Source: Ghiorsea bivora (GTDB lineage: Bacteria; Pseudomonadota; Zetaproteobacteria; Mariprofundales; Mariprofundaceae). Taken from it: a DNA stretch of 64,000 nt. The notes under the pieces were generated by a model, which saw only the letters and a program-made list of their open reading frames with translations, made no database searches and was not told where the DNA came from. The position numbers and the translations under genes were made by a program. Positions 193 to 6,024 of this stretch are shown here, in pieces. The stretch covers positions 62,001 through 126,000 of the forward strand of contig NZ_JQLW01000008.1 in the NCBI RefSeq assembly GCF_000744415.1, given 5' to 3'. Each line of letters opens with the position of its first letter. The first letter of the stretch is position 1.

Positions 193-660
193 TTACTTAT
201 CACAGTAAGGCGCGTTGATGTTGTTTGTAATTTGATTCAAGGTGTTAATCATCTGTGTAAATTCAGTATCAGATATGCCTTGTAAAGTCATGTCGCTAAG
301 GGCGTGAAGCTTGGGTATGAATTGCTCAAATATGTTTTGACCTTTTGGCGTGATGTGCGCACGAATGATGCGGCGGTCTTCATGATCTTGAATGCGTTCT
401 ACGAGGTTGAATTGAACCAAACTGTTGAGTAAACGTGTAACTGAAGCTTTATCTTTCTCCAATATATGTGCCAACTTTGTTTGTGTAAGTCCTTCAAAAT
501 GTTGGATGATCATTAAAGCCTGTGCGGCTTCTGGTGTAATATCATAACCCAAATCTTTATATGCTTGACTGGTCTGCTGGCGCATAAAACACATCAACTG
601 TCCAATTAAGGGCATAATGGCAGCTAGTTTTATGTCTGTGCTTGGTTGGAAATCTTTCAT
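193..660 (-). CDS. MarR-family transcriptional regulator
   Basis: A 155-residue winged-helix repressor by family. The central region (GLTQTKLAHILEKDKASVTR, then the wing with DHEDRRIIRAHITPKG) matches the MarR DNA-binding domain: helix-turn-helix, then the D-x-R-D/R wing. The reading frame can be extended to an upstream ATG at 696, but that codon lies inside the gene's own promoter (-35 at 707-712, -10 at 684-689), so I start at the ATG at 660 (MKDFQPS). No strong Shine-Dalgarno is seen. The gene is divergent from the channel/RND pair, and both promoters overlap a perfect palindrome. This suggests an autoregulated repressor of the pump that is released by a small-molecule ligand. Confidence 0.85.
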   Translation of the reverse strand: MKDFQPSTDIKLAAIMPLIGQLMCFMRQQTSQAYKDLGYDITPEAAQALMIIQHFEGLTQTKLAHILEKDKASVTRLLNSLVQFNLVERIQDHEDRRIIRAHITPKGQNIFEQFIPKLHALSDMTLQGISDTEFTQMINTLNQITNNINAPYCDK

Positions 661-683
661 AGTGGCAAACGATAGGGTTATTG

Positions 684-712
684 TTGATAAAATCAATAGT
701 TGACCATGTCAA
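684..712 (-). promoter_or_regulatory. marR promoter
   Basis: On the minus strand TTGACA (707-712) is followed, after exactly 17 bases, by TATCAA (684-689): a perfect -35 and a 4/6 -10 element. The -35 lies within the palindrome at 694-718, so a bound repressor would block it. Transcription should begin near 677, leaving a short leader before the ATG at 660. Confidence 0.6.
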
Positions 713-718
713 CTATTG
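694..718. promoter_or_regulatory. palindromic operator, probably for the adjacent MarR protein
   Basis: CAATAGTTGAC (694-704), spacer CAT, then GTCAACTATTG (708-718) form a perfect 11-bp inverted repeat. The TAGTTGAC half-site resembles those of MarR-family operators. It overlaps the -35 elements of both divergent promoters, which would allow one site to control the repressor and the efflux operon together. The geometry is seen in the sequence; binding by this MarR protein is inferred. Confidence 0.75.
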
Positions 719-727
719 TTCTAATGT
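700..727 (+). promoter_or_regulatory. candidate promoter of the channel/RND operon
   Basis: TTGACC (700-705) and TAATGT (722-727) are separated by 16 bases, and the -35 lies inside the palindrome. A second -10-like sequence, TATAGT (761-766), lies nearer the gene but has no good -35, so the exact promoter is uncertain. Confidence 0.45.
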
Positions 728-788
728 TCGTCACATGTTTTTGTTTTCATGGAAATCTACTATAGTGAACAAGCAAAGAGGTGTCAGT

Positions 789-2267
789 GTGAACAAAGTA
801 GGAAAAATATGGATGACGACTTGTTTGTGTTTTGTGTTGCAAACACCAGTTCAGGCAAAAGTATTATCCTTATCGGATGTATTAAGCAATGTATTTGCAA
901 AAAGCCCAGACTTGCAAGCTTCAAATGTGCAGGTGCATATTCAACGTGCCAATAGCTTACAGCTTGATGGAGCACTCGATATGCAATATGGTGGAAGCAT
1001 TGGTTTGAGTAATGAAAGCGCACCAACAACCAATCCTTTTGCGCCTACAGAAACCAATGCGGCATTTGTTTCAGGTCAGGTGGTTCAGCCCTTTGAGGAT
1101 GGTAGTACATTAACAGGGACATTATTATATAATAGTGCCGAATTGATTTATCCAGCTTCAGTTATTCCTGAGTTTCAAAGTAAACCCAACCCGCAATATG
1201 AACACCAAATTGATTTGATTTACCGTTACCCGCTGGTTGCAGGCTCTGGGAATCCTAATTATACGTATCAAAAAGAAGCGAGCTTGGCAGAAGAGAAAGC
1301 AGCAAAACTTCGTATAGCTTTGCTTAAGGAGCAAATTGCAGGACAGGCGATTGGTATGTATGCCCAGTTTGTGTTGAGCGATTTATCTTTAAAACTTGCA
1401 AAAGATGCGGTGTTCCGTGCTGCTCAGCTTTTAGAGAATCAAAAGAAGCGGGAAAGTTTTGGTTTGGTGGAAAAGGCAGACCGCTACCAAACCGAGGCAT
1501 TGCTAGCTGCAAGAAAGCTGCAATTGGCACAAGCCAAAGCGGAGAAACGCGCTGCACAAACCGCACTCAATCGTTTGATGTATCAAGATGCTGGTACGCC
1601 GCTTGTTGTGAAATTTTCCTCACCCAAGGTTCAATTGCAATCCGTATCACAAATGTTGGCTAAAGCAGAGTCTAAACGCCCTGTTTTCCAAGTATTAGCG
1701 GCACAATATAAGGCTGCAGAAGCGCAGTTAAGTCTAGCACAAACATCGGATGATTATCAGTTGGACTTGATTGGGCAGGTGGGTACACGGGCTTTGAGTG
1801 GTAATGCTGGCACAGCTTTTACTAAAGGTTTTAACCCTGTACATGATAGATATATTGGCATCAGTGTTGAATTTAGTGATGTGTTGGACAACAAAAGTAG
1901 TCATGCGGCGGTGCAAAAGAGCGTGTTAGCGCTGGAGAGTATTAATATTGAACGTCGCAAAGCTGTGATGGATTTGCAGACAGAAATTGCCACGCTTTTG
2001 AATGACTTGCACAGTGCTAAAATCACGCTTAAAGCATCGAAAGCGCAAGTGAAAGCTGAAAAGAAGAAGTACCAAGCAGAAATGGAGCGTTATCAAAAAG
2101 GACGCGTGCCAACGTCTACTGTGATTCAGTTTGAAGGTGATTTAAGAGCAGCACAGCTTCGTGAAGCTATTCAGCGGGTTAGCCTTGGTTTGACAGAGTA
2201 TAAGTTGGCTTTAGCCGTGGGTGAGTTGCCTGAATTATTAAGACAAACACAAGGGGATGCGCAATGA
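789..2267 (+). CDS. TolC-family outer-membrane efflux channel
   Basis: A 492-residue protein. I start at GTG 789, which has AGAGGTG just upstream and yields a typical signal peptide (basic NKVGK, hydrophobic core, cleavage near VQA-K). The longer open frame from 681 would begin inside the promoter. Alanine-, lysine- and glutamine-rich helical stretches (about residues 165-270 and 380-470) match the paired coiled-coil hairpins of outer-membrane efflux proteins, which trimerise into a channel and periplasmic tunnel. The stop overlaps the RND start by four bases (ATGA), so the two are translationally coupled. No periplasmic adaptor gene accompanies them. Confidence 0.82.
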   Translation: MNKVGKIWMTTCLCFVLQTPVQAKVLSLSDVLSNVFAKSPDLQASNVQVHIQRANSLQLDGALDMQYGGSIGLSNESAPTTNPFAPTETNAAFVSGQVVQPFEDGSTLTGTLLYNSAELIYPASVIPEFQSKPNPQYEHQIDLIYRYPLVAGSGNPNYTYQKEASLAEEKAAKLRIALLKEQIAGQAIGMYAQFVLSDLSLKLAKDAVFRAAQLLENQKKRESFGLVEKADRYQTEALLAARKLQLAQAKAEKRAAQTALNRLMYQDAGTPLVVKFSSPKVQLQSVSQMLAKAESKRPVFQVLAAQYKAAEAQLSLAQTSDDYQLDLIGQVGTRALSGNAGTAFTKGFNPVHDRYIGISVEFSDVLDNKSSHAAVQKSVLALESINIERRKAVMDLQTEIATLLNDLHSAKITLKASKAQVKAEKKKYQAEMERYQKGRVPTSTVIQFEGDLRAAQLREAIQRVSLGLTEYKLALAVGELPELLRQTQGDAQ

Positions 2268-5200
2268 ATAATATGATTGCCTTTTTTGTAAGGCGCGGGC
2301 TTTTGGTGAATATGTTGTCGGGCATGTTACTGCTGGGTGGCATCTATGCAGCAATGAATATTCAGCGTGAAGCATTCCCTAGTGTGAACTTTGACTTGGT
2401 GGTGATTGGTGCGGCATATCCCGGTGCATCACCACAAGAGTTGGAGCAGTTGGTAACCATGCCAATTGAGCGTGAGCTTAAGGGTATTGATGGGATTAAG
2501 AAAACGACATCAACATCCTATCCGGGAACCATGGAGATTTTGATTCAAGTGGATCCAAATTACACAGACCGCTCGCGGTTTGTTTCTGATGTACAGCAAG
2601 CAGTTAATCGTGCGGTTTTACCTGATGATTTACCTGCAGACCCCTTTGTGAAAGAGATTAAATCAGAACAAACACCTGTGATTTCACTTTCAATTTTTGG
2701 GGATATTCCCGCATTAAAACTCAAACATATCGCCAATCAAATCGAAGATGATTTACTGGCATTGCCGGGTGTATCTAAGGTGAATGTGTTTGGGGATAGG
2801 AAGGAAGAGATTCGCATCACGCTTAAGCCAGAAAAAATGAAGCAATATCGTGTATCTACGGATGATGTGATTGGACTTATCAAAAGGTGGAATGTTAATG
2901 CACCTGGTGGGCAGCTGAATACACAAGAAGGTATTAAAACCATTCGAGTCAATGGTGAGTTTACATCAGCCAAGGATGCAGCTTCATTGGTAATACGTGC
3001 CAATGAGTTTGGTCAGGCATTGTATTTATCAGATATCGCTGATGTTACCCAAACATTGGAGAAACCTAGGCGGTATGTGGATGCCATGGGTGAACCTGCT
3101 ATTAATTTTACAGTCGTGAAAAAGGGGGATGCGGACATTATTGATGTTGTCGATCATGTGCGTGCCTATTTGCCCTTGATTCCTAAACATTATGGCGATG
3201 CCATTCAGGTCCGTGCATATAAAGACTTCTCAATCAATACACGCGTTCGTTTGAATGTGTTGACTAGTAATGGTGCGATTGGTTTGGTCTTAGTGCTGAT
3301 TACATTGTTTATGTTTTTGCGTCCTGCGGTGGCTGTGACGACGGCTTGGGGTTTACCCATTATCTTCTTTTCAGGTTTGTTGGTTTTATTTTTGATGGGT
3401 ACAACTTTAAATCTATTGACCATGTTTGGTTTTATCATTGTGTTGGGTTTAATGGTGGATGATGCCATTATTATTGGCGAGAATGCGACCTACCATATGG
3501 AGAAGGGTTTATCGCCTACAGATGCTGCGATTAAGGGAACGCAAGAGTTGTTGGGTCCTGTGACTGCGACAGTGTTGACAACAGTGGTGGCATTTTTACC
3601 GATGATGTTTATGGATGGTATTATTGGTAAATTTGTGTATTCGATTCCAGTTGTTGTGGTTATTTTGTTAATGTTTTCTTGGTTGGAAGCCATTTTTATC
3701 TTGCCAAACCACGTTGCAGACTTTGCCAACCCTAATAAACACCCCAAAGAGCGTAAGGTGCTTGTTTGGTTAACCAATATGTATGAATTCTTATTGCGTA
3801 AAGCTTTACGCTTGCGTTATGTGACAGTTGCTTTGACTGTGGCTGCGTTTATTGGTTCGATAGCTTTGGCTGGTGTGGTGAAGTTTCAGTTGTTTCCACC
3901 GGGTGCTGAAGATCAGTTTTATTTACAGGTTACCTTGCCTGCTGGTTCTTCGTTGTCTGAAACACGTCAAACATTACAGGCGCTTGATAAAGAAGTGCGA
4001 AAACATGTGCCAGAAGCGCTTTTAGAAACCACGGTGGGTGTGGCAGGGGATAATGCTGCCAATGAGCAAGAGTCACTTAAACAAATCGGAGATAGATTTG
4101 GTTACTTAAAAGTCATTCTAATATCTTTTGCGCATAGGGATATTTCCGCTTATGCGGTGATGGATGATGTCAAAGCAGGGCTGGTAGGGAAGTTTCCTGA
4201 TGTAGATATTAATTATGTCATGCTTAAAGGTGGTCCACCAACAGGGCGAGCTTTGCAAGTTGAAATTACAGGCACAGATACAGATAGAATGCAATCGGGT
4301 CAGGCATTAATGGCATTGTTGCAGAGTATTGATGGTGTACACTCTGTGGAAAGTGGGTTGCGCGAAGGTTCGCCCGAAATACATGTTGAAGTCGATCGGA
4401 AGCTGGCAGCTTATGCCAATATTGATTTGGCATCGATTGCAACAAGTGTTCGTGCTGCTTTTGATGGTATTCCAGTCTCAACCTTGAAGCAGGGGGTTGA
4501 AGAAGTGGATGTCACCATTCGTTTTCCTGAGCTGGCGCAACAAAATGTGCATACACTCGAACAGTTGTTGATTCCGAATCGCCTAGGCGGCCTTGTCCCC
4601 CTAGGAAAAGTGGCGACATTCAAGGAAGTATCAGGACTAACAAGTTTGAGGCATAAAGATGGTTTGCGTGTGTTAAATGTTACGGCAGAGGTGGATGAAG
4701 GTGTGATCACATCAAAAGCACTGAATGACTTGGTGAAAAGTAAAGATAGCGAGTGGTTAAGTTCGCAAGACCCTGCAAAGGTGAAGTATGTGATGGGTGG
4801 AGAACAAGAAAAAACCGATGAGTCTGTGCAAGGTTTGGTCTTTAGCTTTATTTTTGCATTGATTGGTATTTTTGTGATATTGGCGATTCAGTTTAATCGG
4901 ATTGCTTATCCGTTTTTGGTGATGTTTGCGATTCCCTTTGGGGTTATTGGTATTGTGGTGGGGCTGTTTTTACATGGGCAACCCTTGTCTTTTATGTCAT
5001 TGATGGGTTTTGTGGCACTAACAGGGGTAGTGGTGAACTCATCGCTGGTCTTGGCGGTTTTAATTCAACGTGAATTTGAGGATGGTAAGCCATGGTTTGA
5101 AGCGATTGTGTACGGCGGTAAGCGTCGCTTTCGGGCAGTTATGTTAACAGCAATCACCACTGTGGTGGGATTATTACCCACAGCTTATGGCTGGGGTGGT

Positions 5201-5347
5201 TTTGACCCCTTTGTGGCACCGATGGCTTTGGCATTATCATGGGGTTTGATTTTCTCAACCTTGATTACGTTATTTGCGATTCCAGCCACCTTGGCGATAG
5301 CTTTGGATGTTAAATCTTTGTTTCAAACAAGGCGTTCTGCAAGATGA
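2264..5347 (+). CDS. RND-family efflux pump, inner-membrane permease
   Basis: A 1027-residue protein, the full length of AcrB-type hydrophobe/amphiphile exporters that use proton influx to expel substrates from the periplasm. It shows the first membrane helix, a porter domain (YPGASPQELEQLVTMPIE), the helix-4 motif GLMVDDAIIIGEN with paired Asp at about residues 399-400, then the second half of the duplication. In helix 10, where AcrB has its essential Lys, this protein reads GVVVNSS (about 921-927). That is typical of a divergent RND subgroup, so proton relay must differ in detail. It is coupled to the channel gene and followed by a strong terminator at 5459-5486. Confidence 0.88.
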   Translation: MNNMIAFFVRRGLLVNMLSGMLLLGGIYAAMNIQREAFPSVNFDLVVIGAAYPGASPQELEQLVTMPIERELKGIDGIKKTTSTSYPGTMEILIQVDPNYTDRSRFVSDVQQAVNRAVLPDDLPADPFVKEIKSEQTPVISLSIFGDIPALKLKHIANQIEDDLLALPGVSKVNVFGDRKEEIRITLKPEKMKQYRVSTDDVIGLIKRWNVNAPGGQLNTQEGIKTIRVNGEFTSAKDAASLVIRANEFGQALYLSDIADVTQTLEKPRRYVDAMGEPAINFTVVKKGDADIIDVVDHVRAYLPLIPKHYGDAIQVRAYKDFSINTRVRLNVLTSNGAIGLVLVLITLFMFLRPAVAVTTAWGLPIIFFSGLLVLFLMGTTLNLLTMFGFIIVLGLMVDDAIIIGENATYHMEKGLSPTDAAIKGTQELLGPVTATVLTTVVAFLPMMFMDGIIGKFVYSIPVVVVILLMFSWLEAIFILPNHVADFANPNKHPKERKVLVWLTNMYEFLLRKALRLRYVTVALTVAAFIGSIALAGVVKFQLFPPGAEDQFYLQVTLPAGSSLSETRQTLQALDKEVRKHVPEALLETTVGVAGDNAANEQESLKQIGDRFGYLKVILISFAHRDISAYAVMDDVKAGLVGKFPDVDINYVMLKGGPPTGRALQVEITGTDTDRMQSGQALMALLQSIDGVHSVESGLREGSPEIHVEVDRKLAAYANIDLASIATSVRAAFDGIPVSTLKQGVEEVDVTIRFPELAQQNVHTLEQLLIPNRLGGLVPLGKVATFKEVSGLTSLRHKDGLRVLNVTAEVDEGVITSKALNDLVKSKDSEWLSSQDPAKVKYVMGGEQEKTDESVQGLVFSFIFALIGIFVILAIQFNRIAYPFLVMFAIPFGVIGIVVGLFLHGQPLSFMSLMGFVALTGVVVNSSLVLAVLIQREFEDGKPWFEAIVYGGKRRFRAVMLTAITTVVGLLPTAYGWGGFDPFVAPMALALSWGLIFSTLITLFAIPATLAIALDVKSLFQTRRSAR

Positions 5348-5403
5348 TTAAATCTTAATTTTTCTTTCACGCTAAAGTCATAGAGGGGTCTTATAGTTCG
5401 CAG

Positions 5404-5486
5404 GGTCTGGCGCTACCTCCCTCCCCTCCCTCCTCAGCGCCAGACAGATATTGATTAAGGGTCTCACTTTTGTGAGACCCTTTTTT
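5404..5486 (+). ncRNA. candidate small RNA with a CCUCC-rich loop
   Basis: A 9-bp perfect stem (GTCTGGCGC 5405-5413 with GCGCCAGAC 5437-5445) presents a 23-nt, almost purely pyrimidine loop made of repeated CCTCC units. A 13-nt linker leads to a perfect terminator hairpin and six T. A -10-like TATAGT at 5392-5397 would place the start at about 5404, exactly at the foot of the first stem, although no clear -35 is present. The loop is complementary to Shine-Dalgarno sequences, as in known anti-SD small RNAs such as the alphaproteobacterial CCUCCUCCC-loop family. It could be an independent RNA or a 3'-UTR product of the RND mRNA. Confidence 0.5.
5459..5486 (+). terminator. rho-independent terminator after the RND operon
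   Basis: GGGTCTCAC (5459-5467), loop TTTT, GTGAGACCC (5472-5480), then six T. This perfect 9-bp stem separates the efflux operon from the nuo operon. Confidence 0.92.
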
Positions 5487-5652: not shown

Positions 5653-6024
5653 ATGGGGCTCGATTATTTGGCCAGCAATTATGTGCCAATTTTTATATTT
5701 ATTTTAATAGCATTAGGCATGGGTATTATGCCTTTGATGCTAACTATGGTGGTCGCTGAACAGCGCCCAGATGCAGAAAAGCTTTCGGCATACGAATGTG
5801 GCTTTGAAGCTTTTGAAGATGCGCGCATGCATTTCGATGTTCGCTTTTACCTTGTAGCGATTCTTTTTGTGATTTTTGATTTAGAAACAGCATTTCTTTT
5901 CCCTTGGGCTGTGGTCTTGGATCAAATCGGTATTTTTGGATTTATCGAGATGATGTTGTTTTTACTGATTCTTTTGGTTGGATATATTTACGCCTGGAAC
6001 AAAGGGGCTTTGCAATGGGAATAG
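5653..6024 (+). CDS. nuoA: NADH-quinone oxidoreductase subunit A
   Basis: A 123-residue inner-membrane subunit of complex I with three helices. The conserved loop after helix 1 ([21 protein letters not shown]) carries the Cys and acidic residues that line the quinone-site entrance, and [16 protein letters not shown] is the family signature of helix 2. ATG 5653 follows GAGGGA by six bases. It is the first gene of the 14-gene nuo operon, and its 3' end overlaps nuoB by ten bases. Confidence 0.95.

Follow-up and report, generated by a model that had tools for sequence, protein, structure and literature searches.

The window, by which we mean the whole stretch of 64,000 nucleotides of Ghiorsea bivora DNA that was analysed, carries between an RND efflux transporter gene and nuoA, the first gene of the nuo operon, a short element composed of a hairpin with a pyrimidine-rich loop, a linker and an intrinsic terminator (Table 1). 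In the upstream region (193-5347), a gene for a MarR-type regulator is divergent from this RND gene and from another gene, which encodes an outer-membrane efflux protein. On the other side, the closest relatives of the NuoA protein belong to Mariprofundus and Mariprofundaceae, which places the genome in the Zetaproteobacteria.

The layout described in the first-pass annotation, namely a 9-bp stem, a 23-nt pyrimidine loop, a linker and a perfect terminator, agrees with the sequence: GTCTGGCGC and GCGCCAGAC form a perfect stem of 9 bp around a loop of 23 nt which, once a U-A closing pair is included, become a stem of 10 bp and a CCUCC-repeat loop of 21 nt. The terminator stem is also perfect, with 11 bp (5457-5467/5472-5482), and is followed by a T run up to 5486. 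The fold energy is -39.1 kcal/mol, as compared with a mean of -16.4 for shuffled sequences (z = -8.1; 0 of 200 shuffles). That annotation had also placed the start of the RNA at the stem by means of a TATAGT hexamer, which indeed predicts a start at about 5404-5405, and the placement holds for the relatives, since TAnnnT is found at -13 ± 1 in 54 of 59 copies. The genome of G. bivora has a single copy of the element.

Table 1. Features of the sRNA locus and its flanking genes (positions in the window)
Feature	Position	Strand	Evidence or remark
RND efflux transporter gene	2264..5347	+	ORF; in most genera of Zetaproteobacteria, one sRNA copy follows it
Operator, four direct-repeat half-sites, 11-bp period	5345..5381	+	In register in 57/59 copies; putative activator site
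Operator cores	TGA 5345-5347, TAA 5356-5358, TCA 5367-5369, TCA 5378-5380	+	
-10 hexamer TATAGT	5392..5397	+	11 nt past the last TCA; no -35 box
sRNA gene	5404..5486	+	Predicted RNA of about 82 nt; covariance models, conservation
Stem 1, 5' arm GTCTGGCGCT	5405..5414	+	Both-side changes in 6/10 helix pairs, 54 copies
Anti-Shine-Dalgarno C/U loop ACCTCCCTCCCCTCCCTCCTC	5415..5435	+	92% pyrimidine; CCTCC in 53/54 copies
Stem 1, 3' arm AGCGCCAGAC	5436..5445	+	Covariation in alignments
A/T-rich linker, single-stranded	5446..5456	+	Unpaired in the minimum-energy fold except for a weak 3-bp helix
Intrinsic terminator, stem AAGGGTCTCAC/GTGAGACCCTT and T run 5481-5486	5457..5486	+	Covariation, fold
nuoA, first gene of the nuo operon	5653..6024	+	ORF; NuoA relatives

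A hairpin conserved throughout the class

Conservation of the loop and stem in related genomes, set beforehand as the test of the proposal, was strongly borne out. Two covariance models, an early one and a later one trained on 54 copies, match the small RNA (sRNA) in 72 of 78 Zetaproteobacteria genomes, a figure that includes sequences which match by construction the model that they helped to build. The matches extend to four deep-branching genomes (G037-G040) outside the model-building set, where the same promoter is present at four of the five copies read. As for the six genomes that give no match, the locus is absent in three, and in a fourth it is truncated where the contig stops. By a DNA search, in turn, the element was recovered from 11 of the 15 congeneric genomes; three of the other four lack a nuoA match, and in the last one this match spans only residues 35-123, apparently cut by the end of a contig.

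In the alignment of 54 sequences, 99.3% of the cells pair, versus 32-53% when the partners are slid, and both-side changes occur in 13 of the 18 pairs (128 cells; 0 of 500 shuffles), although this alignment was fitted to the structure of the model and is thus biased towards it. The first alignment, which was unfitted, contains six pairs with changes on both sides. Within the 54-copy alignment the terminator contributes both-side changes in seven of its eight modelled pairs. The sequences of stem and terminator vary while the loop keeps its anti-Shine-Dalgarno character, with 66% C and 26% U over a length of 16-31 nt, and CCTCC occurs in none of the 54 linkers. The existence of a family is sustained by covariation, by genomes unused in the models and by a promoter that lies outside them. 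A chance origin of the hairpin is ruled out, given that it has been kept together with its promoter throughout the class, with compensatory changes, far beyond chance; there is hardly any doubt that the hairpin at 5405-5486 represents a genuine gene for a small regulatory RNA, whose transcript is predicted from these sequence comparisons.

Many genomes carry several sRNA copies, part of them in tandem. Beyond the Zetaproteobacteria, weak matches came from 19 of the 320 other genomes of a phylum sample, none of them convincing as a homologue: of five matches inspected four were spurious, and the fifth (L201:737-831, in G379) is a hairpin with a C/U-rich loop and a terminator, devoid of the operator and possibly convergent. 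A second and weaker type of hairpin, with a C-rich loop (AGATC(T/C)GG...TCGGATCT) and a terminator, lies near the sRNA in some genomes of genus g9, also without the operator (L149:1695-1783, L167:657-745, L169:721-802 and L168:272-360).

Operator, promoter and genomic context

Upstream of the stem, four conserved cores (TNA, T(A/C)A, TCA and TCA) lie at -60, -49, -38 and -27 from it; of the 59 copies compared, 57 have the four of them in register, whereas no shifted control does. The arrangement TCA-N11-TAnnnT is present in 52 of the 59 copies, and a -35-like hexamer in only four. At the locus described here the first core overlaps the stop codon of the RND gene, and wherever the copies are in tandem each of them has its own operator and promoter. 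When about 464 kb of the G. bivora genome was scanned with an operator matrix, the sRNA promoter scored 41.7 bits and the next match 18.9; with a strict operator pattern, it was the only intergenic site of these 464 kb to fit. A search of four genomes with the operator pattern alone recovered the sRNA genes together with a divergent copy (L185) that had been missed before, and the remaining matches read look like chance. No good operator site was found at the regulator loci examined. Direct repeats at such a spacing are typical of activators of the OmpR/PhoB family, and the geometry of the operator points to a protein of this type; a dedicated regulator seems to turn on the sRNA promoter.

The gene that follows the RND-linked copy varies, being nuoA here and others elsewhere, and further copies adjoin unrelated genes. 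At six nuoA loci of other genera (L031-L036) a strong sRNA match is absent, and with it any linkage between the sRNA and nuoA. The combination of an RND-linked copy with a changing downstream neighbour and of copies beside unrelated genes speaks for a gene that stands by itself, and against a nuo leader or an RND tail. Could the hairpin, nonetheless, lack its own promoter and merely close the RND mRNA as its 3' end and terminator, or be an RNA derived from its 3'-UTR? The position of the RND gene, which precedes the sRNA in most genera, would fit such an origin. However, the conserved operator and -10 hexamer sit between the RND stop codon and the hairpin, they are repeated at every tandem copy, and they are retained by copies placed beside unrelated genes (e.g., L153, L158 and L170), all of which makes this origin very improbable. 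The same signals bear on the strand of the functional RNA. Read on the minus strand, the loop becomes GAGGAGGGAGGGGAGGGAGG and could evoke a GGA-rich sponge for CsrA, but the conserved operator, the -10 and the T run all belong to the plus strand. In addition, 29 of the 54 copies have a G-U at one position of the stem, which pairs only in the plus-strand RNA and whose minus-strand counterpart would be a mismatched A-C; a sponge of this kind can practically be set aside.

Loop complementarity and related RNAs

A target search against ribosome-binding sites, suggested in the first-pass annotation, gave a divided answer: the loop complement is enriched at gene starts, but no individual target is supported. 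In 20 stretches of 20 kb, which make up part of the G. bivora genome, at least seven contiguous bases of the loop complement are found at 26 of 420 gene starts versus 2 of 1260 internal windows, an enrichment expected of any anti-Shine-Dalgarno sequence and inflated by the simple ORF caller, which prefers strong Shine-Dalgarno sequences. Target specificity by duplex energy was rejected, as shuffled loops reach equal energies: duplexes of -12 kcal/mol or lower are predicted with 98 genes for the real loop and with a mean of 111 for shuffled loops of the same composition. Since the latter do equally well, the pairing potential would derive from composition, with support for no specific target. 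The nuo operon was likewise considered and discarded as a target, because its enrichment in this genome (p = 0.011) came from a post hoc choice and was not replicated in two relatives. On complementarity, the loop would be able to reach ribosome-binding sites.

Models of Hfq (TIGR02383) and ProQ (PF04352) recovered the E. coli controls and gave no match among the 78 genomes of the class, although such searches could miss a highly divergent homologue. Being both undetected, the sRNA would have to act without Hfq. Helicobacter pylori RepG (HPnc5490) is also an RNA with a C/U-rich loop in a bacterium devoid of Hfq, but it differs in its target, which is the G homopolymer in the tlpB leader and not Shine-Dalgarno sites generally.

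Rfam 15, searched with the window region at E values up to 5, returned only weak terminator-like matches far below the gathering score, and only a tRNA for the loci of nine relatives; no sRNA of Zetaproteobacteria was described in the literature searched. The proposed likeness to the CCUCCUCCC RNAs of Alphaproteobacteria was correct insofar as the CCUCC motif is held in a hairpin loop, and so was the opinion that the layout falls outside known families, in view of the Rfam result and of the three hairpins of NfeR1/alphar14, each with an identical CCUCCUCCC loop, in Sinorhizobium meliloti (PMC10746234). In this family, which includes SmelA075 (PMC3927594), the anti-Shine-Dalgarno CCUCC motif is also displayed in unpaired hairpin loops (here in 53 of 54) on stems that diverge, repression in trans takes place at start regions, as would be the case for the zetaproteobacterial sRNA, and the promoter is controlled by regulators, the nutrient-stress proteins LsrB and NtrC (PMC10746234). 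Nevertheless, the 54 aligned copies all have one hairpin with a longer C/U loop of 16-31 nt plus a terminator, and a four-repeat operator in Zetaproteobacteria stands in place of the LsrB/NtrC sites of Alphaproteobacteria. The element shares a conserved C-rich loop on a stable stem with sX13 of Xanthomonas and with 6C. The C-rich loops of sX13 were shown experimentally to repress, independently of Hfq, at G-rich regions near start codons; that RNA has, in contrast, three stem-loops with 4C/5C motifs, lies downstream of polA and is restricted to Xanthomonadaceae (PMC3771888). The mycobacterial 6C and B11 bind several mRNAs through C-rich loops (PMC10470900 and its reference 42), and 6C is reported not to require an RNA chaperone (PMC10470900), but they are actinobacterial, have two such loops, and no relation to the present sRNA was detected by sequence or in Rfam. 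Judging from these comparisons, the element is a new RNA family of the known C-rich or anti-Shine-Dalgarno loop type, outside NfeR1/alphar14, sX13 and 6C. New here is the four-repeat operator, which was missed in the first-pass annotation together with the class-wide distribution with tandem copies and the absence of detectable Hfq and ProQ.

A proposed regulatory mechanism

Taken as a whole, we consider it probable that this is a regulated, chaperone-independent sRNA which blocks Shine-Dalgarno sites, where we infer transcription, the class of the regulator, the pairing of loop and mRNA, and repression. A response regulator of the OmpR/PhoB family would bind the four half-sites at their 11-bp spacing and recruit RNA polymerase to a promoter that lacks a -35 box. 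The resulting independent sRNA, of about 82 nt, would end at its own terminator, and its rigid stem would keep open a C/U loop of about 21 nt with the repeated anti-Shine-Dalgarno sequence. This loop would pair with G/A-rich ribosome-binding sites, so that the translation of many mRNAs would fall, most strongly where 7-10 contiguous pairs form, without the help of Hfq or ProQ.

Two other explanations accept the gene and change, respectively, its activity and its regulator. The loop, by mimicking the 3' end of 16S rRNA or by serving as a C/U-rich ligand, could titrate a protein (e.g., S1 or a cold-shock protein) or some other translation factor, with no mRNA targets in trans. Some loops (g4 copies) end in CCTCCTTA, resembling the 16S 3' end, and for the predicted pairing the composition of the loop outweighs its order; yet those hairpins with C-rich loops that have been tested pair with G-rich mRNA sites (PMC3771888, PMC10746234), and we regard titration as distinctly improbable. 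Somewhat less remote, but still unlikely, is that PhoB itself would be the direct regulator, making of the same molecule a phosphate-starvation sRNA. This was the initial idea, raised by the 11-bp repeats, whose period and spacing to the -10 equal those of PhoB promoters such as E. coli phoA, and the genome does have a PhoB/PhoR-like pair, pstS and olsF. PhoB is disfavoured, however, because the boxes adjoining phoB in 12 class genomes read TGTCAY-N5-TGTCAY, a Pho box that the sRNA operator does not contain, its half-sites being TTAAT, TTCAY and NTCA; the idea was downgraded once the Pho boxes of the same genomes proved different. Moreover, the phoB and pstS loci give no score with the operator matrix.

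Other loci with repeats deserve to be recorded. The canonical boxes of the 12 genomes (L221-L232) lie where the genes of the PhoB/PhoR-like pair diverge from a neighbour, which in G. bivora encodes a putative outer-membrane protein. At L119:1087-3333 (G000:C8), pstS and a gene for an ornithine lipid synthase of the OlsF type are divergent, and the interval that separates them contains Pho-box-like repeats, an arrangement that suggests lipid replacement under phosphate control. Two paralogous short genes, at L249 (minus strand, around 9132) and L242:12350, carry TCA-N8-TCA-like repeats and a similarly spaced -10, and may share a regulator family with the sRNA.

The regulated sRNA that we favour constitutes an independent instance of the anti-Shine-Dalgarno loop strategy. 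The family is class-wide, often present in multiple copies and equipped with an operator of its own, its hosts seemingly lack both major sRNA chaperones, and its regulator and target set become directly testable. The Zetaproteobacteria are iron-oxidising bacteria, and nearly all the genomes searched have this sRNA. More tentatively, and as a possibility to which we give limited credence, in a class without Hfq and ProQ an anti-Shine-Dalgarno RNA family tuned by gene dosage may act as a global brake on translation, under one response regulator whose strongest sites would be almost exclusively these RNA genes.
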